Positions 329 through 30,856 of a DNA stretch of 30,856 nucleotides are shown one piece after another. Every line of letters starts with the position of its first letter. Position 1 is the stretch's first letter. The stretch comes from a virus, in the IMG/VR virus record IMGVR_UViG_3300013126_000152, positions 1-30,856 of that record; one strand, given 5' to 3'. Made by a program: the position numbers and the translations under genes. The notes beneath the pieces are model-generated. The model did no database searches. It saw only the letters and a list, made by a program, of their open reading frames with translations, and was not told the origin of the DNA.

Positions 329-566
329 ACTGACTTGGAAGGATGTCCTGTTTATTGACCAGGATACTGGTAAATACAGCACAAACAAGTTGTGGATAAA
401 CATAGCCAGTGCGATAACGCTGATACTATTCCCATATGCTGTGGTTTATGGCAGCAAGATTGGTTATGAGTTGTGGTTAGTGGTTATGATGGCATTCCTG
501 GGCAACAGAACCATCAACAAAATCGCCGAAAAGAAGTTCGGTGTGGACAAGGAACAAGACAAATGA
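297..566 (+). CDS. Small two-TM membrane protein, holin-like
   Basis: This 89-residue protein has a polar N-terminus, then two hydrophobic helices (about residues 32-50, INIASAITLILFPYAVVYG, and 55-70, YELWLVVMMAFLGN), then a basic C-terminal tail. Size, topology and the phrase DQDTGKYSTNKLW before the first helix recall small phage holin-like families. It overlaps the preceding membrane gene and ends in an ATGA overlap with the head-tail joining gene, so it is in the same transcript. No endolysin is visible in the window, so a lysis role is inference. Confidence 0.6.
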   Translation: MAARKSNKPNKLTWKDVLFIDQDTGKYSTNKLWINIASAITLILFPYAVVYGSKIGYELWLVVMMAFLGNRTINKIAEKKFGVDKEQDK

Positions 567-1646: not shown

Positions 1647-2077
1647 TTAGTGAACTTGGCACTGATTTACTTACTAAAATCAAAGCATTACCATCAGGTA
1701 AATTAGGAACTACTCCAGTTCGAATCGGTCTTGCTGTGGGGGCAACAAGTATCGATCCATTTATGGAAAAGGTTCAGCTTCCAGCCGCTTGGGCTGTGTA
1801 TGTTGGTGATAATTTGAATACCAATGATGTACAAGGTAATGCTTGTGGTAATACAGCTGTCGCACAATTTGTCATCAAAGTGTTTGTTGAGTACATTTCT
1901 GAAAAAGATTTGCTTGACAACCAATATCCACTACTCCGTGAGATCGCAAAGCAAGTAAACGGTCAACCTGGACCGAAGGGTGCGATGAAATGGAAGTATG
2001 AGGGACAAACTTTGGATGAAATCACAGGCAATAGAGTGGTATTTGACCAGAGATATTCCATAGTTACAATATTATAG
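1643..2077 (+). CDS. Putative tail terminator protein (gp37/DUF1834-like)
   Basis: The product is 144 residues. The start is the ATG at 1643 (ATGA overlap with the stop of the tail completion gene); a longer in-frame start at 1592 lies inside that gene and is less likely. Features include a short helical N-terminus, LGTTPVRIGLAVGATSID, a central beta region and a C-terminal strand ending FDQRYSIVTIL. Position (after head-tail joining and tail completion, just before the tail tube) and size match tail terminators, which cap the tube and set tail length. The family resemblance is by memory and modest. A late promoter follows immediately. Confidence 0.55.
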   Translation: MISELGTDLLTKIKALPSGKLGTTPVRIGLAVGATSIDPFMEKVQLPAAWAVYVGDNLNTNDVQGNACGNTAVAQFVIKVFVEYISEKDLLDNQYPLLREIAKQVNGQPGPKGAMKWKYEGQTLDEITGNRVVFDQRYSIVTIL

Positions 2078-2078
2078 G

Positions 2079-2086
2079 TATAAATA
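2079..2086 (+). promoter_or_regulatory. T4-type late promoter (TATAAATA) before the tail tube gene
   Basis: Exact TATAAATA followed by CTCTTAC, close to the T4 late promoter, which has no -35 box. It lies in the 52-base gap between the terminator-like gene and the tail tube gene, 44 bases before that ATG. Start of transcription is expected about 6 bases after the octamer. Six other exact copies occur on this strand. Confidence 0.7.
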
Positions 2087-2129
2087 CTCTTACTCTACAC
2101 AATTTAATTTTGAAAAAGGATGAATAATC

Positions 2130-2894
2130 ATGGGAACATGCACAACTGAATATTTCGCTGGTCAAGGTAAAGTTTACGTTGCGCCACGCGCAAAAGCTGG
2201 TGCCATCAACGGTGGCTGGACAGAACTAGGCGATACATCACGTCTGGAAATCACAACAAATCAAACATTTAACGACATCTATGAGTCCTGCTCAGGCACA
2301 CGTTCTATCGTTGCTCACTACGTCACTCAAACTGACTGGGCTTTCGCTGTTGATGCAAAGTCATTCAGCAAGGAAAACATCGCACGTGCTCTATATGGTA
2401 CTGCTTCTGCCGTTACTGGTGCAACTGCTCCAACTGAAACTCTCACAGTTTACGGTCTGAATCAGATTGCTCCACTAAAGCACCCAGGCGTTTCTGCTGT
2501 AACAGTTAAGGATGGTGTAACAACGCTAACAGTTAACACTGACTACACAATTGATGCTGCTAACGGCACCATCACGCTAATCAGTGCTGCAAACCTAACT
2601 GGTCCAGCACCATACTCAATCGAAGTCGACTACACATACGCTGCATACGACAAGGTTGAAACAAACACAACTACTGGCGGTGAATACGCATTCCGCTTCG
2701 AAGGCATCAACATGACAACTGGTAAGACAGTTATTGCTGAAATCAATCGTGTTGCTCTTGACCTTGCAGGTGCTCTATCACTGATTAGCGCTGACGGCAC
2801 AGAACAAGTCTTCACAATGGAAGGTATGATTCTTGCTGATACAACACAACCATCTGGTGAAAGCCAATACGTTACAATCAAGAAAGCACAGTAA
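2130..2894 (+). CDS. Major tail tube protein
   Basis: This 254-residue protein has a good ribosome site (AAAAAGGATG, 13 bases before the ATG). The N-terminal part (about 1-90) and C-terminal part (about 180-254: GGEYAFRFEGINM, INRVALDLAGAL) form the tube-type beta fold. Between them, about residues 105-175, sits a separate Ig-like beta domain with the signature VKDGVTTLTV, DYTIDAANGTITL and IEVDYTYAAYD. It has its own late promoter upstream and a strong terminator downstream, consistent with a protein needed in hundreds of copies. Its neighbours (terminator protein before, chaperones and tape measure after) support the call. The inserted domain recurs in the fibre protein at 13457-14290. Confidence 0.8.
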   Translation: MGTCTTEYFAGQGKVYVAPRAKAGAINGGWTELGDTSRLEITTNQTFNDIYESCSGTRSIVAHYVTQTDWAFAVDAKSFSKENIARALYGTASAVTGATAPTETLTVYGLNQIAPLKHPGVSAVTVKDGVTTLTVNTDYTIDAANGTITLISAANLTGPAPYSIEVDYTYAAYDKVETNTTTGGEYAFRFEGINMTTGKTVIAEINRVALDLAGALSLISADGTEQVFTMEGMILADTTQPSGESQYVTIKKAQ

Positions 2895-2921
2895 TATAGT
2901 GCAGATGTAGCAAAGTAAGAT

Positions 2922-2948
2922 GAGCCTCTTCGGAGGCTCTCTTCTTTT
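2922..2948 (+). terminator. Rho-independent terminator with UUCG loop
   Basis: The perfect 7-bp stem GAGCCTC/GAGGCTC (2922-2928 / 2933-2939) is closed by the stable TTCG tetraloop and followed by a T-rich run (TCTTCTTTT). It ends the tail tube transcript. The same hairpin is found after the capsid gene at 29301-29320. Confidence 0.9.
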
Positions 2949-2955
2949 ATAAATA
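2948..2955 (+). promoter_or_regulatory. T4-type late promoter (TATAAATA) before the tail chaperone gene
   Basis: This exact TATAAATA begins at the last T of the terminator tail and lies 43 bases before the ATG at 2991. It would restart transcription for the chaperones, tape measure and tail tip after the terminator. Confidence 0.7.
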
Positions 2956-2990
2956 TAGATGTCGGCTAAACGACTATAGGAGATATTATA

Positions 2991-3383
2991 ATGAGTGAAG
3001 AACTACAACAACTATTCCCAACAGGGAAGGAAATCAGCATACGCGACGAAAACCTCACAATCAAACCATTCAAGTTTGGTGAGCTACCAAAGGTGTTTAA
3101 GGCTATTGAGCCACTATCAGATGCATTGACCAACTCCCTATATGCAGGTGAGTTCTCAATCACAACAATTGCAAAGATGATTGCAGATGGTGGAGATTCA
3201 GTAATCGATTTAATGGTAATTGGTTCACGCAAAGAACGTGGATGGATTACAGATTTGGAAATGGATGAAGGCGTGCTGCTCTTAACATCCATCATTGAGG
3301 TAAACGCTGATTTTTTTACCCAGAAGGTTCTGCCACAGATAAACCAAAAGCTGACAAAGCTAAATGGGCAGACCTCATCGTAA
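2991..3383 (+). CDS. Tail assembly chaperone, short (G-like) form
   Basis: This is the zero-frame product, 130 residues, with a good ribosome site (AGGAGATATTATA before ATG). It is a small acidic helical protein between tail tube and tape measure, the position of lambda gpG and its analogues, which bind the tape measure protein during tail assembly. Signature parts are ISIRDENLTIKPFKFGELP at the N-terminus and a helical core. A run of seven T at 3311-3317 near its end allows a -1 frameshift into the overlapping downstream frame (see the fused form). Confidence 0.8.
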   Translation: MSEELQQLFPTGKEISIRDENLTIKPFKFGELPKVFKAIEPLSDALTNSLYAGEFSITTIAKMIADGGDSVIDLMVIGSRKERGWITDLEMDEGVLLLTSIIEVNADFFTQKVLPQINQKLTKLNGQTSS

Positions 3384-3574
3384 ACTTGGTTAAATCAGGT
3401 TTCTCATTTGGAGAGGTGCAGGAAATGTATCTCTCTCAAATCAAGGCTTTATCGGAAGCATTAGCGCGCCATAATAGTGAAGAGTCTCTAAATACTATGA
3501 GCCTCAATCGGGTCGCATACCATGCCGACTCAAAAGAATATGGGAAGATTGTGAAGCAATTCCAAAGGAAATAA
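2991..3574 (+). CDS. Tail assembly chaperone, frameshifted (GT-like) fusion
   Basis: A -1 slip on the T7 run (3311-3317, zero frame reading ...GAT TTT TTT ACC) continues as TAC CCA GAA and stays open to the stop at 3572-3574. This gives a fusion of about 194 residues. The extra C-terminal part is about 85 residues (YPEGSATDKPKADKAKW, then FSFGEVQEMYLSQIKALSEAL). The same reading frame contains a 62-aa ORF at 3386-3574 that lacks a good ribosome site, which fits expression by frameshift only. The fused domain is helical, like lambda T. The fusion ends 3 bases before the tape measure start. Confidence 0.8.
3311..3317 (+). other. Programmed -1 frameshift slippery site (T TTT TTT)
   Basis: The heptamer T TTT TTT matches the X XXY YYZ rule with all T, so both tRNAs re-pair perfectly after a -1 slip. 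It lies at codon 107-109 of the chaperone gene, and the -1 frame is open downstream to 3574. I did not find an obvious strong stem right after it. Confidence 0.75.
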
Positions 3575-3577
3575 GTT

Positions 3578-6568
3578 ATGGCAAATCCAAATGTAACCGT
3601 CACGCTCACCGCTGTTGATAATCTATCATCAGCACTCAAAAATGTTGCCAATAATGCTCAACAGGCAGCCAATCAAGTTCAGAAGTCCATCTCTGGTGTC
3701 AACGGTGCACTAGATAAATTCCGCACTCAGGTTCTTGGTGCATTTGTTGTCTCTGGATTATTTGACACCATTGATGCACTGCAGACCATGCAGAATAAGT
3801 TGCGTGGAACTACTCAATCTGCAGATGAATTTAATAGAGCGATGACGGATGTCAACAAGATATCCACTGAAACTGGTATGGCGATGACAGATGTCGCCAA
3901 CTTGTTCAGTAAAATATCAGCCAACTCCCGACAGTTTGGTTTTGACATGGATGACATCACAACCACTACGTATGCTTTTGCAAATGCATTAAGAGCATCA
4001 GGTGCGGGGGCTCAAGGTGCTGCATCTGCCATGTACCAGTTCGGTCAGATCATGAACAAGGGCAAAGCAGACGGTGATGAACTCAAGACTGTGATGGAAA
4101 ACTTGAGTGGTCCTGTGTTGTCAATGCTTGCATCTAAACTGGGACTTACCGTCGCTGAAATGTTGAAGTTGCGTTCTGAAGGCAAACTCACAGCAGAGAT
4201 GGTTGCTACAGCATTCAAGTCATCAGCCAAAGAACTGGAACAGATGACAAGTCAGATGCCACTGACGGTTGGTCAATCACTCAACCAAGTCAAGAATTCA
4301 TTTGCTAATTTGTTGTTATCAATGGAACAATCAGTAGGAATGTTCAGTAAGATATCGGCTGGTCTGCAGTGGTTGGCTGAAAACTTCACATCTGTAGCAA
4401 AAACCATCGCAATTGTTGCTGGTGCTTGGGCTGGGATGAAGATGGCTGCATGGGCTGGCATTGCAATTTCTGCTGCTCAAGGGTTGTTAAAATTAGGGCA
4501 AGCAATGCGACAGGTTGGTGTTTGGACAGCTATTGCACAAGGTATTGCTAGTAAAGGCAAAGGTGTTATTGGGGCTATTGCAGGCGCAGGTGTGGCTGCT
4601 ATCGCAACAGAGCAAATATTTAAATCTGCAGATGAAGCCGCAAAAGAACTAGAGAAATCGATGAGTGAACTAGCCACCGAAAGTGAAGGTGCTGCTGGGT
4701 CTTTGAGTTATCTAGGTGAGGCACAGGAAGGGTTGGGTGATGTAGAAAATATAGTTAAAGAGCGCGAAAAGTTCATACAAAAATTGCGTGAAGAGGCTGC
4801 CGAAGCCAGGATGACAGCAGAAGAATTGCAGACACTAAAGTTGATTCAATTTGCTGCAACAATCGAAGATCCAACGCAACGTGATGCGTATATTAAGGAG
4901 GGTGAAGATTTAATTGCTTTGGCATCGGCACAGAAAAAGTCTAATGAAGCCAAGAAAGAGGCTGCCCAAGCGTATAAGCAAGCGGCTACTGAACGCAAAA
5001 ACTTCCTGAAAGATTTGGACAAAGAGATTGCTCTTGTAGGCAAGACTAATACTGAACAGAAGTTGTATGAAGCACAACAGATGGCTTTGACCATCGGTAA
5101 CAAGAAACAGCGTGAATCGTGGTTGGCATTGGCTGAAGCGAAGATTAAGGCATTGGCTGCTGCAGAAGAGGAATTTAAAAAGAAGGAAGAAATGATTGCA
5201 CAAGCCAAACAAATGGCTGATACAATCACGGGCGTTGCTGTTGAGTTGCAAAAGGAAATTGATGGCTACAATGAGTTAGGTCGTTCTGCTCAACTGGCTT
5301 ATGATTTGGAGAAGGGGCGATACAGAGATGCGTCCGAACAACAGAAAGAGTTACTACGCTTACTGGATGAAGAAAGAGCATCAAGAGAGTTGATCAATGA
5401 GCAACTTCGCATCGGTCGTGAAATCATGGATCAATTTGCTACTTCTGTGGCAAACCAAGAGTATCTCAACACAGCAAGCAGAGAATATTTGGAAATTCTC
5501 CAACAACAAGGTACAGAAGCTGCCGATGTGTTCCAGAAACAAAGAGAGCCAGTTGATGCTCTACGTTTGGAAATTAACGCTGCTGAAGTCGCTGTTAAGT
5601 CACTTCAGGCTGAAATCGACAGACTGAGTGCAACAGATGAATCAAGAGCTGAAAACTCTTATAAAATCAAAGACTTACAAGACCAACAACTTAAATTGGC
5701 TGGTGAGATTGCAACAAAGTATGAAGCCATCGCTGCAGCCACGAATGAATTTGCTGAAGCAAATCAAGCGGCTCATGAAGCTCAACAGCAGATTGCAAAA
5801 GAGACAGAAGCCTGGAAGAGTATTATCCAGAAGAATCGTGATGAGTGGAAGAAGATTGAAGATGAACTTGCTTTGGTCAAGAAATGGCACGAAGAAGGCA
5901 AAATATCCGCCGATGAATACCGTATCGCTGTTGAAAAAATTAACAAAGTTAAACTTGATAAAATCCGTGATGAAATGACGGAAACACAAAAGGCAGCAGT
6001 GCGTATCGCAGAAGAAATGCAAAGTGCTTTTGAAGACTTCTTCTTTGATGCGATGCAAGGAGAGTTTGGTAATCTTGCTGATTCATTTAAGAAGATGATT
6101 GACCGCATGGTTGCTGAGGCATTAGCAGCTAAACTAGCAAACGCGCTGTTTGGTGACTTCAAAACACAAGGTAGAACTGGAGGCGGTATGCTTGGGGGGT
6201 TACTGGAAGGCATTGCTGGGTTCTTCGGGTTTGGAAAACAAAGTACAAACCAGAGTAGGTTAGGCACTGGAGCTGGTGGAATTGTTGATGCTATTACTGG
6301 CATATTCAAGGCACAAGGTGGTCCAGTATCCGCAAATAGCCCATATGTTGTGGGTGAGATTGGTCCTGAACTATTCATACCAAAGACTTCTGGTACAATT
6401 ATCCCAGCAGACGTTACACAAGGGTTGATGTCTTCTGGCAATAGTCTGACGGTAAATATTACAGCGATGGATAGCAAAGATGTGTTGCGTGCTATGGACC
6501 AAATCAAGCGTCCGTTAGCAGAGATGTTGAACGGAACCAACCGCTCATACAATTTAGGAGCAAGATAA
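3578..6568 (+). CDS. Tail tape measure protein
   Basis: 996 residues, ribosome site AAAGGAAAT before the ATG. The N-terminal tape measure domain spans about residues 1-265 (LSSALKNVANNAQQAANQ, LSGPVLSMLASKLGLTVAEM, LPLTVGQSLNQVKNSF-like). Two hydrophobic, Ala/Gly-rich segments follow (about 276-299 and 329-344), likely the part that inserts into the host membrane. A long coiled coil rich in K/E/A/Q runs from about 365 to 850. Then comes a Gly-rich stretch, then the C-terminal motif GGPVSANSPYVVGEIGPELF common in lambda gpH-type proteins. At about 1.5 angstrom per residue the tail would be roughly 150 nm. It directly follows the frameshifted chaperone. Confidence 0.95.
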   Translation: MANPNVTVTLTAVDNLSSALKNVANNAQQAANQVQKSISGVNGALDKFRTQVLGAFVVSGLFDTIDALQTMQNKLRGTTQSADEFNRAMTDVNKISTETGMAMTDVANLFSKISANSRQFGFDMDDITTTTYAFANALRASGAGAQGAASAMYQFGQIMNKGKADGDELKTVMENLSGPVLSMLASKLGLTVAEMLKLRSEGKLTAEMVATAFKSSAKELEQMTSQMPLTVGQSLNQVKNSFANLLLSMEQSVGMFSKISAGLQWLAENFTSVAKTIAIVAGAWAGMKMAAWAGIAISAAQGLLKLGQAMRQVGVWTAIAQGIASKGKGVIGAIAGAGVAAIATEQIFKSADEAAKELEKSMSELATESEGAAGSLSYLGEAQEGLGDVENIVKEREKFIQKLREEAAEARMTAEELQTLKLIQFAATIEDPTQRDAYIKEGEDLIALASAQKKSNEAKKEAAQAYKQAATERKNFLKDLDKEIALVGKTNTEQKLYEAQQMALTIGNKKQRESWLALAEAKIKALAAAEEEFKKKEEMIAQAKQMADTITGVAVELQKEIDGYNELGRSAQLAYDLEKGRYRDASEQQKELLRLLDEERASRELINEQLRIGREIMDQFATSVANQEYLNTASREYLEILQQQGTEAADVFQKQREPVDALRLEINAAEVAVKSLQAEIDRLSATDESRAENSYKIKDLQDQQLKLAGEIATKYEAIAAATNEFAEANQAAHEAQQQIAKETEAWKSIIQKNRDEWKKIEDELALVKKWHEEGKISADEYRIAVEKINKVKLDKIRDEMTETQKAAVRIAEEMQSAFEDFFFDAMQGEFGNLADSFKKMIDRMVAEALAAKLANALFGDFKTQGRTGGGMLGGLLEGIAGFFGFGKQSTNQSRLGTGAGGIVDAITGIFKAQGGPVSANSPYVVGEIGPELFIPKTSGTIIPADVTQGLMSSGNSLTVNITAMDSKDVLRAMDQIKRPLAEMLNGTNRSYNLGAR

Positions 6569-7182
6569 TGGCGTTTCAGAATGTCATAATGCCGCAAATA
6601 AAACTTATGCACGGCGTTACAAAACAAGTTATAGATCCAGTACTGATTGTTGGTAATGGCAACCGTGAAACACGGAGAAAGCAGAATAGATACGAAAGAT
6701 TTATCTGGTCATACCCAGCCCGTTCTATTCTGGATACAAGCAAGCAAGAGTTGCATGAGTTCTTCCGTGGCGTCAATATGGCACTGGACTCATTCCTATT
6801 CCAAGACCCTGACTTCCCTGAGTTCTACAACACTGAACTGGTTCACAAGACTGGTTCTATTTGGTATCTGGAGTTGCCAAACGGACACCCCGTTATCAAC
6901 CCAGTTATGGGTGGATTGGTATTCAAGGTCAATGGAACAACAAAAGCAGCGACATTTGCAATAGATGCTGACGGCAGACCCACAGTAGATGTAACAGACA
7001 GTTCAGCAATAACAACAGTAACCGTATCAGGTCCTGTCTATATGACAGTGCGTTTGAATAGCCCAATCGCTTGGACACTAACCGCATTTGACCAGTCATT
7101 ATCAGGTGCTAACTGTGCACCAGCCCCATACATTGTAGACTTGAGCGATATTGAACTAATTGAGGTGTTTGAGCGTGCATAA
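6568..7182 (+). CDS. Distal tail protein, DUF2460 family (GTA gp12-like)
   Basis: The product is 204 residues; the ATG overlaps the stop of the tape measure (TAATG). The N-terminal pattern IDPVLIVGNGNRETRRKQNR.ERFIWSYPARS, then ELHEFFRGVNMALDSFLFQDPDFP, is typical of DUF2460, the distal tail ring of the Rhodobacter gene transfer agent and many siphophages. The C-terminal half is a beta domain. The next three genes keep the gp13-gp14-gp15 order of the GTA tail tip, which supports the call strongly. Confidence 0.85.
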   Translation: MAFQNVIMPQIKLMHGVTKQVIDPVLIVGNGNRETRRKQNRYERFIWSYPARSILDTSKQELHEFFRGVNMALDSFLFQDPDFPEFYNTELVHKTGSIWYLELPNGHPVINPVMGGLVFKVNGTTKAATFAIDADGRPTVDVTDSSAITTVTVSGPVYMTVRLNSPIAWTLTAFDQSLSGANCAPAPYIVDLSDIELIEVFERA

Positions 7183-8020
7183 CATATCAACAGACCTAAA
7201 AAATGAAATAATCAACGGTAAGCGTGCAGTATTAGTAAAGATCACCCGCAAGGATGGTCAAATATATGGCTATACTGATCACGACCTACCTCTTACCGTT
7301 GATTCCCAATTATATGTCCCAGCACCAGGTATTAAGCGGACAAGCCTAACAACTACAACCGACGATCGTGTTTCCAACCAGGAGTTTGCTTCTGCTTGGG
7401 TAGATGCACCTGAAGAGGACTTGTTGGCTGGTTTGTTTGATGATGCTGTTGTGGAGACAATGCTATGCTCTTGGGATCACCCAGAATACGGCACATTTAC
7501 AGTTGATAAAGGCAGTCTTGGTGTAATCCAGTGGACAGCAGACGGCTTCCGTGGTGATGTCCAATCCCACATGCGTCAACTAACCCGCAATATTGCGTTT
7601 ACATACACAGCAAGTTGCCGCCACCAGTTATTCAGCACATTTGGACCACACAAGTTGGGTGCTTGCACAATCAACAAAGCCAGTTATACATTCCCAGGTG
7701 CTGTTAGCGTAGTATCCACAGACAAGTTGATATTTGAGGTTAGTGGCTTGACACAAGCAGACGGGTTCTGTAGTGCTGGGACGATTACCTGGTCTACTGG
7801 CGCAAATGTTGGTGTAGTGAGTCCAGTCAAGAAACATACAGTTGGTGCGGTGACCACAATTGAGTTGTTCCTGCCAACACCATACAGCATTGAAGTGGGA
7901 GACAACTTTGACATTACTGCTGGTTGCGACAAGACATTTGCAACATGCAAGAATAAGTTCAACAATGTAGTGAACTTTGGTGGCTTCCCGCATATTCAGG
8001 TGGAGATTACAACACGATGA
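7175..8020 (+). CDS. Tail hub protein, DUF2163/BR0599 family (GTA gp13-like)
   Basis: I choose GTG at 7175 (281 residues), 9 bases after GAGG; the frame is open back to a TTG at 7160. N-terminal DUF2163 pattern: VLVKITRKDGQIYGYTDHD, then VDAPEEDLLAGLFDDAVVE. C-terminal BR0599 part: FTYTASCRHQLF, GACTINKASYTF, and GCDKTFATCKNKFNNVVNFGG. Four cysteines (C148, C164, C251, C258) sit where the GTA hub protein binds an iron-sulfur cluster. It forms the baseplate hub through which DNA exits. It overlaps the distal tail gene by 8 bases and the peptidase gene by 4 (ATGA). Confidence 0.85.
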   Translation: MHNISTDLKNEIINGKRAVLVKITRKDGQIYGYTDHDLPLTVDSQLYVPAPGIKRTSLTTTTDDRVSNQEFASAWVDAPEEDLLAGLFDDAVVETMLCSWDHPEYGTFTVDKGSLGVIQWTADGFRGDVQSHMRQLTRNIAFTYTASCRHQLFSTFGPHKLGACTINKASYTFPGAVSVVSTDKLIFEVSGLTQADGFCSAGTITWSTGANVGVVSPVKKHTVGAVTTIELFLPTPYSIEVGDNFDITAGCDKTFATCKNKFNNVVNFGGFPHIQVEITTR

Positions 8021-8472
8021 GAGATGTAGATAAACAACTTGATATTGTCAAGTCAGTAGTTACTTGGGTTAATACACCATACCATCACCATGCCCGTGTA
8101 AAGGGTATTGGTGTAGATTGTGCCCAGCTGATTGTTGCTGCTGCGCTTGAGAATGGCATTATTACACCTGATGAAGCACAAAATATCCCTAATTATCCAA
8201 CACAATGGCATTTACATAATAGGGAAGAAAAGTTGTTAGAAGCACTGGAGTCGTTCGGCTGTGTGGAGATCCCAAAAGAACAGACCCAACCAGGAGACAT
8301 CATATGTTTCCAGTTCGGTCGCACAACAAGCCATCTTGGTATCAAATTAAATGAGAATGATTTCATTCATGCACGGTATGATATCGGTAAGGTTGTTATA
8401 AATACTTTGCAGAACGAATGGTACGACAAATGGACTAAAACTTACGCGTTCCCTGGGGTGATAAATGGCTAA
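8017..8472 (+). CDS. Tail-tip NlpC/P60 cell-wall peptidase (GTA gp14-like)
   Basis: The product is 151 residues. The catalytic cysteine lies in GIGVDCAQLI (C35) and the catalytic histidine in TTSHLGIKL (H106), followed by DFIHA (H118) as third residue. The PGDII loop (92-96) is typical of the NlpC/P60 fold. In the tail tip it cuts peptidoglycan crosslinks during DNA entry. ATGA overlap with the hub gene. A late promoter octamer lies inside its 3' part, serving the genes that follow. Confidence 0.9.
   Translation: MRDVDKQLDIVKSVVTWVNTPYHHHARVKGIGVDCAQLIVAAALENGIITPDEAQNIPNYPTQWHLHNREEKLLEALESFGCVEIPKEQTQPGDIICFQFGRTTSHLGIKLNENDFIHARYDIGKVVINTLQNEWYDKWTKTYAFPGVING
8397..8404 (+). promoter_or_regulatory. 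T4-type late promoter (TATAAATA) inside the peptidase gene
   Basis: This exact TATAAATA followed by CTTTGC lies 60 bases before the megatron N-terminal gene at 8465. It lies within coding sequence, so chance is possible, but distance and orientation match the other late promoters. It would boost expression of the fibre island. Confidence 0.55.
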
Positions 8473-9088
8473 TCTGGTAATATCAGCAGCAGGGGCGGCG
8501 GTAGGTTATCTTGTAGGGGGTCCTACAGGAGCAAGTATTGGTTGGGCAGTCGGTAGTGCGTTAAGTGCTAAAGATCCAGAATCAACAATGCAGGCACCCA
8601 ATATTGGGGACTTGCGTGTACAAACCAGTCAGTATGGCACCGCAATACCGATTTGCGTTGGGAAACAAAGAGTTAGTGGTAATGTCTTCTGGGCGACTGA
8701 TAAAACAGCACGGACGACAGAAACCAAAACAGATGGTGGTAAAGGTGGATTAGTTGGAGGTGGTGGTGAAGTAACGACCGTCACAACAACATATACAGTC
8801 AATCTTGCAATCGGTATCTGTAAAGGACCAATATTGGGTGTTAGCCGTGTGTGGGCGGATGGGCAGTTGATTGTTGACGCAACTGTAGATGCTAAACCGC
8901 TGATCGGCAACTTGTATTTGGGAAGCAATAGCCAGATGCCAGATCCAACAATGGAAAGTCATCTTGGTTCAGGAAATGTCCCTGGATACAGAGGGTTAGC
9001 ATACATCGTATTGACAGATTTCAATTTAGGTGTTAGTGGTAGAATACCTAATTTCAGTTTTGAAGTGATTAAAGAGGGCGGAATATAA
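8465..9088 (+). CDS. Megatron N-terminal part (GTA gp15-like tail tip protein, split)
   Basis: This 207-residue product starts with the Gly/Ala-rich hydrophobic stretch AAGAAVGYLVGGPTGASIGW and continues with IGDLRVQTSQYGTAIPICVG, FWATDK, a Gly-rich loop (GGKGGLVGGGGE), TYTVNLAIGICKGPILGVSRVWADG and YRGLAYIVLTDFNLG. These are the hallmarks of the first about 200 residues of gp15/host-specificity megatron proteins, normally well over 1,000 residues long. Here the frame stops at 9088 after FSFEVIKEGGI. The remaining domains are found 6.8 kb downstream at 15930-18416. It overlaps the peptidase gene by 8 bases and the first fibre gene by 1 base. Confidence 0.85.
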   Translation: MANLVISAAGAAVGYLVGGPTGASIGWAVGSALSAKDPESTMQAPNIGDLRVQTSQYGTAIPICVGKQRVSGNVFWATDKTARTTETKTDGGKGGLVGGGGEVTTVTTTYTVNLAIGICKGPILGVSRVWADGQLIVDATVDAKPLIGNLYLGSNSQMPDPTMESHLGSGNVPGYRGLAYIVLTDFNLGVSGRIPNFSFEVIKEGGI

Positions 9089-10689
9089 TGGCATTAGCAA
9101 CAAACTCAACTCCTGGTAGTATCGTTCTGGCTGGTGACTTAACTGGTGTTGCAAACGCACCAGAATTGCGTGTCACTGGTGTTGTTGCTGGTAGTTATGG
9201 TCCCGCAAATATTGTAGTTGATAGCAAAGGTCGGTTGGTTTATGCTAAAGACGCTACTTGGAAGACAGACATTGTTCCTCTGGTGGTTGATGCTACATAT
9301 GCCGTGAAGGGCATTATCTCTACTTGTGATCCACGCATCACCATTGAAGGTGGATTGATTGCAGCACATCTGCCAGACGCACTAACACAAGCACAATACG
9401 ATGCTTTGGAAACTGAAGATGAACTTCTTCGTGCAAGTACACCAAAGGGCATTGTTCAGGTTGGTTCAGGTCTTGAAGTTGACAATGGTGTGTTGCGTGT
9501 TCAGTATGCAAGCACTACCAAATTCGGCATTATGAAGCCAGGCACTGGTTTGGATTTTGACATTGATGGTAAATTGACACCATTTGGGCTTGAATCTGGT
9601 GCTTCTGAAACAGAGAAGGGCATTGTACAGATTGGTGATAACATCGATGTGACTGGTGGTGTGATTTCCGTAAAGACTGCAACAGCAGCACAAAAAGGTG
9701 TTGTTCAAGTCGGTTCTGGACTGTCAGTTACTGGTGGTGTGATGTCATGGACTCAACCTGATTATCCAGTTGCTAGTAAGGTAGCAAAGGGATTTGTTGA
9801 AGTTGGTGCAAACATCGATGTCAATACTGGTGTTATTAGTGTTCCTGTTGCAACAGACACAGTAAAGGGTGTTGTACAGGCTGGTGATGGTATTGGTATA
9901 ACTGATGGATCTTTGCGTATTGCTGATGCTACTTATACAACCAAAGGGTTGGTGCAGATTGATGCTGGTAAGGGATTAGTTGTTAGCAGTGGTGTATTAT
10001 CTGTGCAGGACGCAACAGCAACCGAAAAGGGTGTTGCTCAGGTAGGCACAAATATTGATGTGTCTAGTGGAACCATTTCTGTGAAATTAGCATCATCTAC
10101 TGACAAAGGTGTTGTTAGAATTGGTTCTGGATTAGATGTTACTGATGGTGTCGTAAGTTGGACCCAACCAGCTTATCCAGTTGCATCAGCATCAAATAAG
10201 GGGTTTGTTCAAATAACAGAAGGCAATGGCATGTTGGTTGTAAACGGGGTACTTTCAATTAACGTGCTACCAGATACAACTACAACAAGTAAAGGTATAA
10301 TGCAAGTTGGATCGGGGTTGACTGCTACTTCTGGTGAATTATCAGTTGATTCCACAATTCTTCGATTGAATGCTAACAAAACACTGTCTAAAGTACAAAC
10401 ACACGGGGTGCAAGCTGTTACAGGATCTCCATTAACTTGGGACGGCAATAACGGCAACCTATACAGCTTCACTTTGTCAGGCAATATTACACTCAGCAAT
10501 GGTACTAATATAAATGTTGGGTCGTATTACCACTTTATTATTACCAATAGTGCAACGATTACGTACGGAAGCCAGTTTAAATTTAAAACTGGTTCTATTA
10601 AACAACCATCTGGCACCAAATCAGTATTAAGCTGCTATGCTGTTGATGCAAACACACTATATTGCATAATGCAACCAAATTTCGTTTAG
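9088..10689 (+). CDS. Tail fibre with 11 repeats, paralogue 1
   Basis: The product is 533 residues, ribosome site GAGGGCGG. The N-terminal head domain (AGDLTG, TGVVAGSY, VVDSKGRL; about 1-115) is followed by about 11 copies of a repeat of roughly 26-31 residues with the core KGVVQVGSGLxVTGGVxS. The C-terminal beta domain is about 95 residues (YSFTLSGNITLSNGTNI, SYYHFIITNSATITYG), ending NTLYCIMQPNFV. The repeats are expected to form a trimeric beta shaft, and the tip likely binds the receptor. It is clearly paralogous to the next gene in head, shaft and tip. Confidence 0.85.
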   Translation: MALATNSTPGSIVLAGDLTGVANAPELRVTGVVAGSYGPANIVVDSKGRLVYAKDATWKTDIVPLVVDATYAVKGIISTCDPRITIEGGLIAAHLPDALTQAQYDALETEDELLRASTPKGIVQVGSGLEVDNGVLRVQYASTTKFGIMKPGTGLDFDIDGKLTPFGLESGASETEKGIVQIGDNIDVTGGVISVKTATAAQKGVVQVGSGLSVTGGVMSWTQPDYPVASKVAKGFVEVGANIDVNTGVISVPVATDTVKGVVQAGDGIGITDGSLRIADATYTTKGLVQIDAGKGLVVSSGVLSVQDATATEKGVAQVGTNIDVSSGTISVKLASSTDKGVVRIGSGLDVTDGVVSWTQPAYPVASASNKGFVQITEGNGMLVVNGVLSINVLPDTTTTSKGIMQVGSGLTATSGELSVDSTILRLNANKTLSKVQTHGVQAVTGSPLTWDGNNGNLYSFTLSGNITLSNGTNINVGSYYHFIITNSATITYGSQFKFKTGSIKQPSGTKSVLSCYAVDANTLYCIMQPNFV

Positions 10690-10698
10690 GAGATGTAA

Positions 10699-12342
10699 AT
10701 GGCTAACGCTACACAAACAATTGCAGGTGATGTACAACTTGCTGGGGATTTAGGCGGCAACAACAACGCTGCATCACCAGCCCTAACCAATACAGCCGTT
10801 ACACCAGGCTCATATGTGGTTGCTAAATTCACAGTTGATGCTAAAGGACGTCTAACTTCAGCAGCTAGCTCCACTGCGCCAGAAATTATGGCGATCATTC
10901 CTGATGCAATGACGGTAGATGCGTATACCGCTCTATCTCCTGCAGAGAAAGAAGCCCGGGGTAATACTGCAAAAGGTATTGTTGTAGTCGACGACACAAA
11001 TCTGACGGTAGCCGACGGTCTACTGTCATTAACACCTCCTGACGCTACTACAACAAGCAAAGGTGTTGTGCAAATTGGTGAAGGGCTGTCTGTTACAGGC
11101 GGGGTGGTGTCGTACGGAGCCACAGATTATGCAACGACTAACGATTATGGTCTAGTAAAGATTGGATCTGGTTTGGTTGTTAGTTCTGGTGTGGTTTCAT
11201 TGGATACACTACCTGATGCCACCACAATAAGCAAAGGCGTGGTCCAGATTGGCACAAATATTGATGTGGCTGGTGGTGTGATCAGTGTAAAGACGGCAAG
11301 TGCTGCTGATTTGGGAGTTGTACAAATTGGAAGCGGTCTAACGGTTACAGATGGTGTGGTTGAGTTGGGTAGTTTACCAAATGCAACAACATCAACGTTG
11401 GGTGTTGTCCAGATTGGCGATAACATTGATGTAACTGCTGGTACGATCAGTGTGCCAGTAGCAACTACGTCTTCTCTTGGTGTTGTATCTGTACAATCTG
11501 GTGGTGGCTTGACAGTTACTGGTGGAGTACTAGCGTTTGATGGTACATACACAAATGCATCATATTCACAGAAAGGTATTGTGCAGATTCAATCTGGTGG
11601 TGGCATTTCTGTCACCAATGGTGTGATATCAATTGACACAACCGCATATGCTACCAGTGGATCAAAGGGTGTTGTACAAGTGGGGGCAAATATTGATGTG
11701 GATGCTGGTGTAATTAGCATAAAGACAGCTTCTGATACAGAGAAGGGTGTTGTGCAGATTGGGTCAGGGCTTGATGTTGTAGATGGTGTTGTTAGTTGGA
11801 CCCAACCAACTTATCCTGATGCATCTACAACTGAAAAGGGGATAGTACAAATCACACAGGCAAACGGATTAAATATTTCTAGCGGGGTATTATCATTTAG
11901 CCCTCCTGATGCGACCACATCTACAAAAGGAGTTGTGCAGATTGGCGACGGGTTATCGGTTACAGGCGGCGAAGTCAGCACTGATGCAACAGTTCCAAGA
12001 ACTACAACAGTCAATAATTTTACAAAAACGGTATATTCAACAGCATATACACTAACTGATGACGCTAATATTGCTGTTGATGCATCACAAAGCAATTTGT
12101 TTACGGTTACACTTGGTGGGAATCGTACATTAGATAATCCCACAAATCTTGCAGCTGGTGAATACACATTTATAATCAAGCAAGATGGTGTGGGTGGTCG
12201 ACAGTTAGCATTTGGAAGTGCATACAAGTGGAAGAGTGGTTTCAGTAATATATTATCAACGTCAGCCGGGGCTGTTGATATGATTGTGGCTATAAGTGAT
12301 GGTACTAATGTATATTGTAGTTTAGCAAGAGGATTTGTGTGA
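10699..12342 (+). CDS. Tail fibre with 12 repeats, paralogue 2
   Basis: The product is 547 residues with ribosome site TAGGAG 9 bases before the ATG. It has the same plan as the preceding fibre: head domain with AGDLGG, VTPGSYVVAKFTVDAKGRL; about 12 shaft repeats with the core KGVVQIGDNIDVTGGVIS (three begin LGVV instead of KGVV); C-terminal tip FTVTLGGNRTLDNPTNLAAG, ending VYCSLARGFV. Some shaft segments, such as SWTQPxYP, are shared nearly word for word with paralogue 1. This indicates tandem duplication and likely gene conversion. It may form a heteromeric fibre with its neighbour. Confidence 0.85.
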   Translation: MANATQTIAGDVQLAGDLGGNNNAASPALTNTAVTPGSYVVAKFTVDAKGRLTSAASSTAPEIMAIIPDAMTVDAYTALSPAEKEARGNTAKGIVVVDDTNLTVADGLLSLTPPDATTTSKGVVQIGEGLSVTGGVVSYGATDYATTNDYGLVKIGSGLVVSSGVVSLDTLPDATTISKGVVQIGTNIDVAGGVISVKTASAADLGVVQIGSGLTVTDGVVELGSLPNATTSTLGVVQIGDNIDVTAGTISVPVATTSSLGVVSVQSGGGLTVTGGVLAFDGTYTNASYSQKGIVQIQSGGGISVTNGVISIDTTAYATSGSKGVVQVGANIDVDAGVISIKTASDTEKGVVQIGSGLDVVDGVVSWTQPTYPDASTTEKGIVQITQANGLNISSGVLSFSPPDATTSTKGVVQIGDGLSVTGGEVSTDATVPRTTTVNNFTKTVYSTAYTLTDDANIAVDASQSNLFTVTLGGNRTLDNPTNLAAGEYTFIIKQDGVGGRQLAFGSAYKWKSGFSNILSTSAGAVDMIVAISDGTNVYCSLARGFV

Positions 12343-19494: not shown

Positions 19495-19818
19495 ATGACA
19501 ATAAACAAAACAGGTATTGACTGGAAAGATCCAGAGCAACGCAAAGCATACCAACGGATGAAGAACAAAGAGTATTATGCCCGTGATAAAGAGAAGATAT
19601 TGGAGAAGTCCCGCCAATGGCATAAAGAGCATCCTGAAGTAATGACTGAGAACATGAAACGGTATTACGAAAAGAATCGGGAAGCACACCTTGCTAAAAT
19701 GGCTGAATATCACAAGAAAAATCGTGATAAACTCCGTGAGCAAGCAAAGGCAAGGCGGCATAAACGTCGTTTAGAAGAGCAACAGCAGCAAAATGTTGAC
19801 AATGGAGAAGCGAAGTAG
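19495..19818 (+). CDS. Highly charged repeat protein, 107 aa
   Basis: The protein is very rich in K, R and E with repeated units of about 24 residues: YYARDKEKILEKSRQWHKEH, then YYEKNREAHLAKMAEYHKKN and so on. Such Tyr-anchored charged repeats occur in phage DNA-binding proteins next to HNH nucleases, but no HNH or zinc motif is present here. It is probably one long helix or helical hairpin that binds nucleic acid. The ribosome site is weak (GAGGATATTAT). The last codons contain the -35 box of a consensus promoter. Confidence 0.6.
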   Translation: MTINKTGIDWKDPEQRKAYQRMKNKEYYARDKEKILEKSRQWHKEHPEVMTENMKRYYEKNREAHLAKMAEYHKKNRDKLREQAKARRHKRRLEEQQQQNVDNGEAK

Positions 19819-19824
19819 TATAAT
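19796..19824 (+). promoter_or_regulatory. Perfect consensus sigma70-type promoter
   Basis: TTGACA at 19796-19801 and TATAAT at 19819-19824 with a 17-bp spacer: both boxes and spacing match the consensus exactly. Expected start near 19831. The -35 box lies inside the end of the preceding gene. No ORF follows until 20043, so the direct product looks like a non-coding or leader RNA. Confidence 0.8.
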
Positions 19825-19830
19825 TAAGAT

Positions 19831-19892
19831 TAATGGGCGGGTGTAATAAACATTTAGCTTCTCCAATGCCTTGATACCGCATCCGTCCATTA
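19831..19892 (+). ncRNA. Candidate small RNA: 13-bp stem at the promoter start point
   Basis: TAATGGGCGGGTG (19831-19843) pairs with CATCCGTCCATTA (19880-19892) over 13 bp with two G-U wobbles and no gap, enclosing a 36-base loop. The stem begins exactly at the expected start of the consensus promoter. An A/T-rich stretch follows (19895-19915). No ORF with a ribosome site is present. It lacks D- and T-arm sequences, so it is not a tRNA. The transcript may end near 19915 or continue to the hairpin at 19988-20022. Confidence 0.5.
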
Positions 19893-19951: not shown

Positions 19952-20041
19952 GGACGCCAATCCAGTAGTATAATACAGATTAACTAGAAACCCCCGTATC
20001 GATTGGCGTCCTACGGGGGTTTCGCTTTATAAGGACGCCAA
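19952..20041 (+). promoter_or_regulatory. Alternative-pairing leader (GGACGCCAA / TTGGCGTCC elements)
   Basis: GGACGCCAATC (19952-19962) is the reverse complement of GATTGGCGTCC (20001-20011), which is the loop of the hairpin at 19988-20022. The same nine bases GGACGCCAA recur at 20033-20041, over the ribosome site and just before the ATG at 20043. The central element can pair with the upstream copy (opening the hairpin) or the downstream copy (hiding the ribosome site). This suggests a leader RNA switch for the nuclease gene. Confidence 0.5.
19988..20022 (+). terminator. Strong GC hairpin, probable rho-independent terminator
   Basis: A perfect 11-bp stem AAACCCCCGTA/TACGGGGGTTT (19988-19998 / 20012-20022) with a 13-base loop, followed by CGCTTTAT. 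The T run is interrupted, so termination may be partial. It would end the RNA from the promoter at 19796 or attenuate the nuclease gene. Confidence 0.6.
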
Positions 20042-22638: not shown

Positions 22639-22645
22639 ATATCTC

Positions 22646-22719
22646 TAAACCCAACTGTTCTAAACCCAACTCACTGTAGACCCAACTGTGTTTAGACCCA
22701 ACTACAGTTAGACCCAACT
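22646..22719 (+). repeat. Five iterons TARACCCAACT with a 16-bp period
   Basis: TAAACCCAACT at 22646 and 22661, then TAGACCCAACT at 22677, 22693 and 22709; steps are 15, 16, 16 and 16 bp. The 4-5 bases between units vary. They start 8 bases after the small terminase stop. ACTGTAG (22673-22679) and CTACAGT (22702-22708) inside the array form an inverted repeat. Such iterons are typical of protein-binding sites at origins or packaging starts. Confidence 0.8.
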
Positions 22720-22790
22720 CATTTTTCACACCCGCAGAATATGCGGTCTCACCCGTTCTATGCGGTGTTTGACCGTCTCCCCACTGTTTC

Positions 22791-22841: not shown

Positions 22842-22964
22842 TTCGACCGTTTTTGAGTACGTGAGCGCTTACTAACCTTTCATTTTCTCCTTCTGCTATG
22901 AGCCTTCTAAAACCTTACACTATTTATGGACCAATGTCAACAATTATATTTATGGTTGTACCTG

Positions 22965-22993
22965 TTGACTTTTTGTATTTATGGTGCTATAAT
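22965..22993 (+). promoter_or_regulatory. Early promoter P1 (extended -10)
   Basis: TTGACT (22965-22970), 17-bp spacer, TGC then TATAAT (22988-22993). The spacer contains TATTTATGG, shared with the two other early promoters. The start should be near 23000, at the foot of the hairpin 22999-23022, leading to the gene at 23051. Confidence 0.85.
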
Positions 22994-22998
22994 GTTTA

Positions 22999-23022
22999 CA
23001 TATGCTGGTGAAACGGCATATG
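22999..23022 (+). promoter_or_regulatory. 5' leader hairpin of the P1 transcript
   Basis: CATATGC (22999-23005) pairs with GCATATG (23016-23022) around the loop TGGTGAAACG, at the very 5' end of the predicted RNA. The third early leader (24158-24187) keeps the stem but changes T-A to C-G on both sides. It is followed by GAAAGGGTAAAAA, the leader end shared by all three early transcripts. Confidence 0.65.
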
Positions 23023-23050
23023 ACTAAACAACCACTGAAAGGGTAAAAAA

Positions 23051-23308
23051 ATGAATTTGATTGTGAGTGTTGATGTAAACCTGGATAATGGTAGCAATGT
23101 ATTTGTGCCCCGTGTGCCTGTGCACGTTGATGATGCTGTGTATAATGAATACGTAGCAAATGTGTCTACCTGGGGTGTTGATGATGTGGAAACCATCGCG
23201 ATGGTTGAGTGTATTCGGAATGAGATTGGCATACCTGATGTTGTATGGGATACACTGCCTGATCAAGATGAATATGATTATGTGATTGAGGTTGTTGAGG
23301 AAAACTAA
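23051..23308 (+). CDS. Very acidic small early protein
   Basis: 85 residues; I do not recognise the family. Counted charges: 19 Asp+Glu against 2 Arg and no Lys, a net charge near -17. Acidic residues are spread along the chain (HVDDAVYNEY, WGVDDVETIA, LPDQDEYDYVIEVVEEN). It is driven by a strong early promoter directly after the origin-like region. Small acidic early phage proteins often mimic DNA and block host restriction or other DNA-binding proteins, but this is only a suggestion here. A hairpin follows the stop. Confidence 0.75.
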   Translation: MNLIVSVDVNLDNGSNVFVPRVPVHVDDAVYNEYVANVSTWGVDDVETIAMVECIRNEIGIPDVVWDTLPDQDEYDYVIEVVEEN

Positions 23309-23312
23309 AACC

Positions 23313-23339
23313 GGGATCCCGCACTAATAGCGGGTTCTC
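23313..23339 (+). terminator. Hairpin after the acidic gene, possible terminator
   Basis: CCCGC/GCGGG (23318-23322 / 23330-23334) is extended by four more pairs beyond one T-T mismatch, with loop ACTAATA. The sequence after it (ACCATTTTCT) has only a short, displaced T run, so termination would be weak. Confidence 0.4.
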
Positions 23340-23348
23340 ACCATTTTC

Positions 23349-23356
23349 TATAAATA
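23349..23356 (+). promoter_or_regulatory. TATAAATA octamer upstream of early promoter P2
   Basis: An exact late-type octamer, but placed 130 bases before the next ATG and among early genes. A TTGACA (23358-23363) with TATAGA 18 bases on is also present. It may add late or second early expression, or be chance in A/T-rich DNA. Confidence 0.35.
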
Positions 23357-23391
23357 TTTGACAATGGACCATAAATATATGTATAGAGATG

Positions 23392-23420
23392 TTGACCTGT
23401 AAACATATTTATGCTATAAT
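23392..23420 (+). promoter_or_regulatory. Early promoter P2 (extended -10)
   Basis: TTGACC (23392-23397), 17-bp spacer, TGC then TATAAT (23415-23420). The spacer ends in TATTTATGC, matching P1 and P3. It serves the genes at 23479 and 23670. Confidence 0.85.
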
Positions 23421-23428
23421 GTCTCTAA

Positions 23429-23452
23429 TGGTTGAGCAATAGTGCACAGCCA
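23429..23452 (+). promoter_or_regulatory. 5' leader hairpin of the P2 transcript
   Basis: TGGTTG (23429-23434) pairs with CAGCCA (23447-23452) with one G-U; inside, GCA/TGC pairs around ATAG with A opposite A between the two helices. It differs in sequence from the P1 and P3 hairpins but has the same place and the same GAAAGGGTAAAAA element (23464-23476) after it. Confidence 0.55.
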
Positions 23453-23478
23453 ATAATACCAACGAAAGGGTAAAAATT

Positions 23479-23670
23479 ATGAATACGAAACAATTGTGTG
23501 GTTGGATGCGGGTTAAGAGCGCTGTACTGGCTGGTGGCGTTAAGGTTACTGGTAACCAATTGAATGATATGCTGCGCGCAGATGCAGCCCAATACGGCTA
23601 CCGTACGGCTGTATTGTCTGGTCGTGATATGGTCAACAAGCTTGTTGCATTGAATAGTGAGGTGGCATAA
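23479..23670 (+). CDS. Hypothetical early protein, 63 aa
   Basis: I do not recognise it. The start is set by the shared early leader ending GAAAGGGTAAAAATT before the ATG. The protein is basic and helical, with VKSAVLAGGVKVTGNQLNDM and GRDMVNKLVALNSEVA. It begins MNTKQ, as does the P3 gene product. The stop overlaps the next ATG (TAATG), so the two are co-translated from P2. Confidence 0.7.
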   Translation: MNTKQLCGWMRVKSAVLAGGVKVTGNQLNDMLRADAAQYGYRTAVLSGRDMVNKLVALNSEVA

Positions 23671-24113
23671 TGAACACACAGTTTACACACGATCAAATTT
23701 GGGCAGCTCTTCACCCAACCAATAGTTTCAAAACTATTATACAAGAGTTATCAGTTTTAAATGTAATATTAGGTGACATTATCCCATCTGCTGTGTTGAA
23801 ACAACGCGTTATTACCCGCGGAAAGAATGCTGGTTTTCGTCGTATTACTTACAACCGCAATTATGTGTTGTCTGCTAATGACATCGATAAACTGTTTGTT
23901 TATATGACTGGACTTCCAAAATCTGAATACGTTGCTCTCCGTCATTTTATTCAAAATGAAAAAGGTCAAACAATGTTTAGTCTAGTGCTTAATGATGATA
24001 CCAAAGATGCTGAATATGTCGCTCACTGGCATGATGTATATAACCGTACACAACATCTTCGTACTAAATGCTACGCTCATCTAGCACGTGATTTGGATAT
24101 GAATAATTACTAA
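23670..24113 (+). CDS. Hypothetical early protein, 147 aa
   Basis: Not recognised. It is coupled to the 63-aa gene by TAATG. The N-terminus is helical (FTHDQIWAALHP). The middle has basic stretches (LKQRVITRGKNAGFRRITYN) compatible with nucleic-acid binding. The C-terminus is rich in H, R and Y (HWHDVYNRTQHLRTKCYAHL). No catalytic motif is clear. Expression from P2 and the small size suggest a host-takeover or DNA-metabolism accessory. Confidence 0.7.
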   Translation: MNTQFTHDQIWAALHPTNSFKTIIQELSVLNVILGDIIPSAVLKQRVITRGKNAGFRRITYNRNYVLSANDIDKLFVYMTGLPKSEYVALRHFIQNEKGQTMFSLVLNDDTKDAEYVAHWHDVYNRTQHLRTKCYAHLARDLDMNNY

Positions 24114-24123
24114 GTGTGCACTG

Positions 24124-24152
24124 TTGACCTTTTGTGCTATTTATGGTACAAT
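24124..24152 (+). promoter_or_regulatory. Early promoter P3 (extended -10)
   Basis: TTGACC (24124-24129), 17-bp spacer, TGG then TACAAT (24147-24152). TATTTATGG again precedes the -10 box. It begins 10 bases after the stop of the 147-aa gene and serves the gene at 24218. Confidence 0.8.
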
Positions 24153-24157
24153 GGCTA

Positions 24158-24187
24158 CATACGCTGGTGAATGAGCACTGGCGTATG
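24158..24187 (+). promoter_or_regulatory. 5' leader hairpin of the P3 transcript
   Basis: CATACGC (24158-24164) pairs with GCGTATG (24181-24187); GTG/CAC (24167-24169 / 24176-24178) can extend it inside. Compared with P1 (CATATGC/GCATATG), one base pair has changed on both sides. GAAAGGGTAAAAA (24205-24217) then runs straight into the ATG at 24218. Confidence 0.65.
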
Positions 24188-24217
24188 AACTAAACAATAC
24201 TTTTGAAAGGGTAAAAA

Positions 24218-24445
24218 ATGAATACTAAACAACGCACGCTGCTAAACAACGCCGCTAAACTTGTCGCGGCGCAATCGCATGAAGCCCCATACACTGTACG
24301 CCGCGGGCTGGATAGAATGGCATCTGATCCTGAACTGATGTCTGAATGTGTACCAGTGTTTGGTATGGAGTTTGACAAGCTGGTTCAAGGCATGACAGAT
24401 TGTGGTATGCTTGATGTAGAGTTCCAAATGAAACAAGTCTTTTGA
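24218..24445 (+). CDS. Hypothetical early protein, 75 aa
   Basis: Not recognised. The start is fixed by the shared early leader. It is helical, with MNTKQRTLLNNAAKLVAAQS at the N-terminus, a central DPELMSECVPVFGMEFDKL segment and two cysteines. The shared MNTKQ opening with the 63-aa early protein suggests copying of the promoter-leader cassette together with the first codons. It is the last plus-strand gene before the convergent portal gene. Confidence 0.7.
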   Translation: MNTKQRTLLNNAAKLVAAQSHEAPYTVRRGLDRMASDPELMSECVPVFGMEFDKLVQGMTDCGMLDVEFQMKQVF

Positions 24446-24470: not shown

Positions 24471-24536
24471 AGCCTGACGGCTACCCTTTCGCCCGCTCAC
24501 TATACCCGCCGTCAGGCTGTTCAGTTTGGGTATAGT
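24471..24536. terminator. Interleaved inverted repeats between convergent genes
   Basis: AGCCTGACGG (24471-24480) pairs with CCGTCAGGCT (24509-24518), and ACTATACCC (24499-24507) inside that loop pairs with GGGTATAGT (24528-24536). The two perfect helices (10 and 9 bp) cross, giving a pseudoknot order. It lies in the 103-base gap between the 75-aa early gene and the portal gene, so a two-way terminator is likely, though no good T run is present. A small AAGACGTCTT palindrome (24445-24454) precedes it. Confidence 0.6.
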
Positions 24537-24548
24537 GGGCACTTCACA

Positions 24549-30524: not shown

Positions 30525-30856
30525 TACAGTCGTAGTATCGGAAACAAATTATAACGTTGTTGTAGATGAATCTAACAATATCGTAGTTGAGATTGATCAA
30601 CCGTCCGTGGGACCTGCAGGTCCACGTGGCTACACAGGATCGCAAGGACCAATCGGGTTTACTGGTTCAGTGGGTTATGTAGGCTCACAGGGTGATATTG
30701 GTTTTACAGGATCAACTGGCTCACAAGGAGATGAAGGTGAAAGAGGTTATACAGGAAGTCAAGGTGAAGTTGGTTACACTGGGTCGGTTGGCATTCAAGG
30801 GAGCATCGGCTACACTGGTAGCGCTGGGTCTGCTGGCGCTGTGGGTTTTACTGGAA
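30517..30856 (+). CDS. Collagen-like fibre protein (3' partial)
   Basis: ATG at 30517; the frame stays open to the window edge (113 complete codons plus one base). After a short beta N-terminus (VVDESNNIVVEIDQPSVGPA) come Gly-X-Y triplets without a break, in the style GYTGSQGPIGFTGSVGYVGS, with Thr, Ser, Phe/Tyr and Gln in X/Y positions. These form a collagen-type triple helix in phage fibres, either on the head or as side fibres. Its place behind the adaptor and fibre-base genes suggests a head-proximal fibre. Confidence 0.85.
   Translation, partial: MVNTVVVSETNYNVVVDESNNIVVEIDQPSVGPAGPRGYTGSQGPIGFTGSVGYVGSQGDIGFTGSTGSQGDEGERGYTGSQGEVGYTGSVGIQGSIGYTGSAGSAGAVGFTG

Follow-up and report, generated by a model that had tools for sequence, protein, structure and literature searches.

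Three copies of a phage promoter–leader cassette with a predicted mRNA-protecting 5′ stem-loop

A promoter, a stem-loop at or close to the predicted 5′ end of the RNA and a ribosome-binding site (RBS) recur together three times (P1, P2 and P3) in the window analysed here, which is an entire IMG/VR record (30,856 bases, linear). We interpret them, with a probability of about 0.6, as a three-copy phage cassette whose 5′-terminal stabilising stem-loop works as an mRNA-protecting leader, most likely an ordinary leader of this type used three times rather than a new kind of signal. In the proposed mechanism, each unit would be driven by a strong host-type sigma-70 promoter with an extended -10, and the stem-loop, starting about 0–2 nt from the predicted RNA 5′ end and followed by a short linker and an A-rich RBS, would protect the mRNA 5′ end and thereby stabilise the message. 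P1 and P3 would have been duplicated, with the hairpin kept as the copies diverged, P2 would share the promoter and RBS with a hairpin of different sequence, and TATTTATGG, as a probable operator, would allow the units to be regulated together. The motifs, their positions, the predicted folds and the retained pairing are observed, whereas we infer the start sites, the time of expression, the stabilisation and the operator function; early timing and 5′ ends are deduced from promoter type only. If this reading is true, the leaders represent a natural, repeated use of 5′ hairpins by a phage to keep the mRNAs of small genes alive in the host, and their paralogous copies show that pairing, not sequence, is kept.

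Promoters, leaders and genes of the three units

All three promoters carry TTGACY, a 17-bp spacer, an extended -10 (TGC or TGG) and TATAAT or TACAAT, as the original prediction had described them. The elements of the three units, with hairpins taken from fold predictions, are as follows:

22965..22993, plus strand: P1 promoter, TTGACT/17/TGC-TATAAT
22999..23022, plus strand: P1 leader hairpin (9-bp stem with a GUGAAA loop); transcript start predicted near 23000
23037..23049, plus strand: GAAAGGGTAAAAA, RBS copy 1
23051..23308, plus strand: gene under P1, 85 aa
23392..23420, plus strand: P2 promoter, TTGACC/17/TGC-TATAAT
23429..23452, plus strand: P2 leader hairpin, 6+3 bp, loop AUAG, sequence unrelated to P1/P3
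23464..23476, plus strand: GAAAGGGTAAAAA, RBS copy 2
23479..23670, plus strand: first gene under P2, 63 aa (MNTKQ...)
23670..24113, plus strand: second gene under P2, 147 aa, with its own GAGGTGG Shine-Dalgarno, the strongest listed
24124..24152, plus strand: P3 promoter, TTGACC/17/TGG-TACAAT
24158..24187, plus strand: P3 leader hairpin (12-bp stem with an AAUGAG loop), paralogous to that of P1
24205..24217, plus strand: GAAAGGGTAAAAA, RBS copy 3
24218..24445, plus strand: gene under P3, 75 aa (MNTKQ...), predicted all-helical

Transcription starts were placed 7 nt after the -10, based on -10 spacing, at about 23000, 23427 and 24159. The stems begin 5–8 nt past the end of the -10, about 0–2 nt from this predicted +1, with the predicted start at the stem foot in P1 and P3 and two bases ahead of it in P2. 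The earlier claim of a hairpin at the predicted RNA 5′ end stands for all three leaders, which fold unusually well: -12.8 kcal/mol for P1 (z -5.5, 0/200 shuffles as good), -17.7 kcal/mol for P3 (z -5.6, 0/200) and -10.2 kcal/mol for P2, the last being statistically weak (z -2.3, 4/200). That P2 has a hairpin of different sequence at the same place was likewise borne out at this lower significance. The RBS lies outside all stems, which end 11–17 nt upstream of GAAAGGG. Rfam covariance models gave no match at E ≤ 1 anywhere in the window.

The 13-mer GAAAGGGTAAAAA occurs at exactly three sites in the window, no extra site appears when two mismatches are allowed, and its first nine bases alone would be expected 0.18 times by chance. 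The prediction of 13 identical bases directly before the ATG therefore holds for their identity, but not for strict abutting, as the gaps are 1, 2 and 0 nt. GAAAGGGTAAAAA also precedes an ATG in at least 120 stretches of viral contigs and is for that reason not diagnostic alone. Most other genes in the window have AGGAG-like RBSs, unlike the GAAAGGG of the three leaders. Against the E. coli 16S tail the three sites score -4.5 and are among the phage's weakest, whereas a CCUCCUUUCU tail, should the host have one, would make them strong (-8.5); the suggested role in preferential translation is unsupported. The idea that this RBS was kept because it is the strongest also finds no support with a tail of the E. 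coli type.

The leaders of P1 and P3 are 76% identical over 51 nt and are, on sequence grounds, paralogues from a duplication, in agreement with the proposal that the cassette was copied as a unit. The MNTKQ start shared by the 63-aa and 75-aa proteins was confirmed, but the two have no similarity beyond it, which indicates that the copying, or the constraint, reaches just a few codons into the gene. None of the four proteins (85, 63, 147 and 75 aa) had a match in PHROGs, Pfam, phages or viral contigs, and the 85-, 147- and 75-aa proteins had none in genome contigs, the 63-aa protein not being among those queries. Single-sequence structure prediction for two of the proteins returned no usable function. 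If the leaders work as proposed, four small proteins without homologues are likely strongly expressed and worth testing.

Leader hairpins: pairing, base rates and known counterparts

The compensatory change reported between the stems is correct: CATATGC/GCATATG in P1 corresponds to CATACGC/GCGTATG in P3, with both sides altered and pairing retained. Overall, 3 of the 18 aligned stem positions differ and all nine pairs are kept, one U-A pair having become C-G through changes on both sides and one G-C pair G-U through a single change. The P3 stem is also 3 bp longer (12 bp), owing to an indel in the loop. Between 1.9% (no transition bias) and 7.2% (strong bias) of random substitution triples would keep all nine pairs, and just one pair truly covaries between P1 and P3, so that the retained pairing lends modest support from one comparison of two copies. 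Pairing also seems to matter more than sequence in this small sample, in which P1 and P3 keep all pairs and P2 has a different stem. Of the original proposal that the hairpin is selected as RNA, the survival of pairing through three substitutions and an indel, with G-U tolerated, speaks in favour, but the covariation itself depends on a single pair.

The same symmetry could in principle belong to DNA, with the inverted repeat at the start site serving as an operator for a dimeric repressor rather than as an RNA element. Symmetric CATATG-type arms near +1 occupy a classic operator position, a dimer site would equally predict symmetric changes in both arms, and TATTTATGG is evidence of shared DNA motifs in the region. 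However, P2 lacks the arm sequence, the arm spacing of P1 and P3 differs by several bases, and several pairs are G-U in the RNA, which breaks the symmetry in DNA; a dyad with the same half-sites at a fixed spacing in every copy was not found among P1–P3. We regard this explanation as very improbable. Folded as DNA, these strands reach about half the stability of the RNA stems. Since G-U pairs, the change in P1/P3 arm spacing and the unrelated P2 arms favour RNA over a DNA operator, the hairpins are likely under selection at the RNA level.

The frequency of such hairpins was assessed in 230 viral loci, counting those of at least -9 kcal/mol whose start lies no more than 8 nt from the expected 5′ end. 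They were present at 6.4% of random positions and at 5.6% of promoter-like sites (n = 412), and the notion that strong phage promoters generally bear 5′ hairpins was rejected on this comparison. Among extended -10 TTGAC promoters, a hairpin follows 2/32 at other viral loci vs. 3/3 here (Fisher p 0.0015), or 2/16 elsewhere when locus L053, the source of the other 16 promoters, is left out (p 0.010); the cut-offs were chosen after the window was seen and the paralogues P1 and P3 were counted separately, hence the true strength of this enrichment is lower.

These base rates bear on a simpler explanation, namely that the leaders are recent copies of one promoter–RBS cassette whose hairpins were inherited or arose by chance and have no function. 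The 76% identity of P1 and P3, the weak hairpin of P2, the roughly 6% of random positions with an equally strong hairpin near the start and the 2–7% of random substitution triples that pairing survives would all fit it. It accounts less well for the joint presence of hairpins in all three units, for an indel that lengthened the P3 stem and for a P2 stem that differs in sequence yet occupies the same place, and we consider it unlikely, if still the least improbable of the alternatives.

Locus L053 (IMGVR_UViG_3300032007_000018) has, at 227-12039, no fewer than 16 extended -10 promoters that are almost identical and have 17-bp spacers; most precede small genes and one a tRNA-like sequence. It resembles the present window in placing such promoters before many small genes, but differs in having no 5′ hairpins after them.

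The mRNA-protecting reading has several experimentally studied counterparts. In E. coli, a 5′ hairpin stabilises bla mRNA and impedes 5′-end conversion by RppH, according to a review that cites Emory 1992 and the research on papA and ompA (PMC3997798), and the effect is message-dependent, as rpsO and T7-transcribed lacZ mRNAs were not helped (PMC3997798). In C. necator, inserting the T7 gene 10 stem-loop ahead of the SD increased expression 1.5- to 3-fold and made the mRNA more stable, and an A/U-rich sequence likewise stabilised mRNA (PMC6146998). Among phages, T4 gene 32 mRNA is stabilised by a 5′ hairpin (PMC8948821). As in the ompA and papA leaders and the synthetic hairpins on bla in E. 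coli (PMC3997798), the stem in the present leaders is predicted to lie at or near the RNA 5′ end with the RBS downstream and outside, and pairing seems to outweigh sequence; the differences are that three copies stand here behind phage sigma-70-type promoters and that stabilisation is predicted. The T7 gene 10 leader likewise combines a phage 5′ stem-loop with an A/U-rich linker and an RBS downstream (PMC6146998), but it has a T7 RNA polymerase promoter and another sequence, in contrast to the sigma-70-type promoters of the window; the leaders matched none of 50,697 phage records. The T4 gene 32 leader and CUUCGG hairpins share with them a 5′ hairpin in phage mRNA with a role in stability (PMC8948821), which for the present leaders is predicted, with the C(UUCG)G loop absent from all three leaders (loops GUGAAA, AUAG and AAUGAG). 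Because their anatomy matches that of known 5′ stem-loops, the leaders are filed with these, their functional membership being a prediction.

Candidate operators and a possible anti-leader RNA

The motif TATTTATGG, absent from the original prediction, occurs 6 times in the window vs. 0.31 expected, and five of the six sites lie within or upstream of P1, P2 and P3. The sites around the promoters, including a one-base variant, are:

22921..22955, plus strand: two copies of TATTTATGG ahead of P1, candidate operators
22976..22984, plus strand: TATTTATGG within the P1 spacer
23369..23377, minus strand: TATTTATGG upstream of P2, inverted
23406-23414: TATTTATGC, one-base variant of TATTTATGG, in the P2 spacer
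24138..24146, plus strand: TATTTATGG within the P3 spacer

The distance between the motif and the -10 in P1 differs by 3 bp from that in P2 and P3, so that the motif is more than extended -10 context, and TATTTATGG is a candidate operator. Upstream of P1 and P2, 22921-22945 and 23353-23377 form a 25-nt inverted repeat pair (84%) containing a TTGAC element and TATTTATGG; these may act as further weak promoters or as operator blocks.

A second feature that had gone unnoticed lies downstream of the third unit, between convergent genes:

24471..24540, plus strand: interleaved inverted repeats, with arms 24471-24481/24508-24518 (11 bp) and 24495-24507/24528-24540 (13 bp)

The arms follow the order a-b-a'-b', the second and third being directly adjacent, an arrangement that is pseudoknot-like on either strand. 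The only other occurrence of GAAAGGGTA in the 30.9 kb window is found here, at 24482-24490 on the minus strand, and at these positions a plus-strand RNA would present UACCCUUUC, which is perfectly complementary to the GAAAGGGUA shared by the three leaders. The conserved 9–13 nt RBS might accordingly be the target of a phage antisense RNA, in which UACCCUUUC, exposed by the structured 3′ region that follows the third gene, pairs with GAAAGGGUA and represses translation of the three units together, in cis or in trans. Such a role would be compatible with a hairpin that also protects the mRNA, and would make the three leaders an RNA-controlled regulon, in which 5′ hairpins protect the messages and a 3′ pseudoknot-like RNA shuts the units off together as it accumulates.

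Besides the position of this sole extra GAAAGGGTA on the opposite strand, the calculated pairing with the three RBSs (-14.2 to -16.1 kcal/mol, compared with -12.5 or weaker for 28 other RBSs), a fold of the full P3 transcript that pairs the UACCCUUUC region with the RBS, and the AGGAG-like rather than GAAAGGG sites of most other phage genes would agree with antisense control. On the other hand, the idea is post hoc: a 9-nt complement arises in 0.8% of shuffles of the 3′ region, and in 4.3% when the whole intergenic DNA of the cluster is shuffled. The complement spans just 9–10 of the 13 conserved bases, a non-pseudoknot fold puts UACCCUUUC partly into another stem, and no plus-strand U-tract terminator-like site was found in the repeat region. 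Antisense control is thus quite unlikely in our estimation, the combined regulon being equally doubtful, and the inverted-repeat region is best described as a speculative anti-leader element, a lead only. Its closest parallels are OppZ and CarZ, autoregulatory sRNAs derived from 3′ UTRs, in which a 3′ region is likewise complementary to the translation sites of its own operon (PMC7398697). Complementarity of this kind, to RBSs of the own operon, amounts here to 9–10 nt at -14 to -16 kcal/mol; unlike OppZ and CarZ, the putative element, a prediction from sequence, has no U-tract terminator. If real, it would let the phage switch off a set of genes with a single antisense loop.

Relatives and setting of the virus record

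The original prediction had proposed searching the genome and its relatives for the leader cassette; its three copies in the window were confirmed, and the searches run found no relative. Viral stretches were screened for TATAAT followed after 38–55 nt by GAAAGGGTAAAAA, and none of the 27 that matched was cassette-like. A pattern built on the P1/P3 stem start gave 0 matches, as did the whole cassette in genome contigs, the leader DNA had no match in phages and plasmids, and Citrobacter phage K1M, Escherichia phage Oekolampad and Salmonella phage SETP13 contain no comparable array.

The record encodes a siphovirus gene set (portal, terminase, scaffold, capsid, tape measure and tail). Its terminase shares 45.6% identity with its counterpart in Citrobacter phage vB_CfrS_K1M and reaches a best identity of ≤ 48% with the viral contigs found, so these relatives are too distant for a leader alignment; the portal, the capsid, the 147-aa protein and other small proteins retrieved no relatives from viral contigs. 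The cassette region is flanked on the left by the small terminase gene and on the right by the portal gene, on the minus strand and pointing towards the cassettes. The right end of the record (30600-30856) lies inside a gene for collagen-like GXX repeats and no replication gene was recognised within it, which means that a portion of the genome is probably missing and the record probably incomplete.

Further structured DNA was observed outside the cassettes. Immediately after the small terminase gene, tandem 16-bp repeats with the core ACCCAACT (22644-22721) are iteron-like or packaging-site-like, and are followed by a structured stretch with a perfect 12-bp stem (22791-22802/22830-22841). A sigma-70 promoter at 19796 (19796-19831) matches the consensus at 12/12 positions, and the element AGTAGTATAATNNAGATTAA is repeated in copies about 150 bp apart (19796-19831 and the 19966-19985 region). 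Competing stems GGACGCCAATC, GATTGGCGTCC and AGGACGCCAA, together with GAAACCCCCGTA/TACGGGGGTTTC, occupy 19952-20041, with TATAAT in the first loop and a final arm that covers the Shine-Dalgarno of a GIY-YIG-like gene at 20043; this stretch resembles an attenuator of translation, and the position of the transcription start could determine its state.
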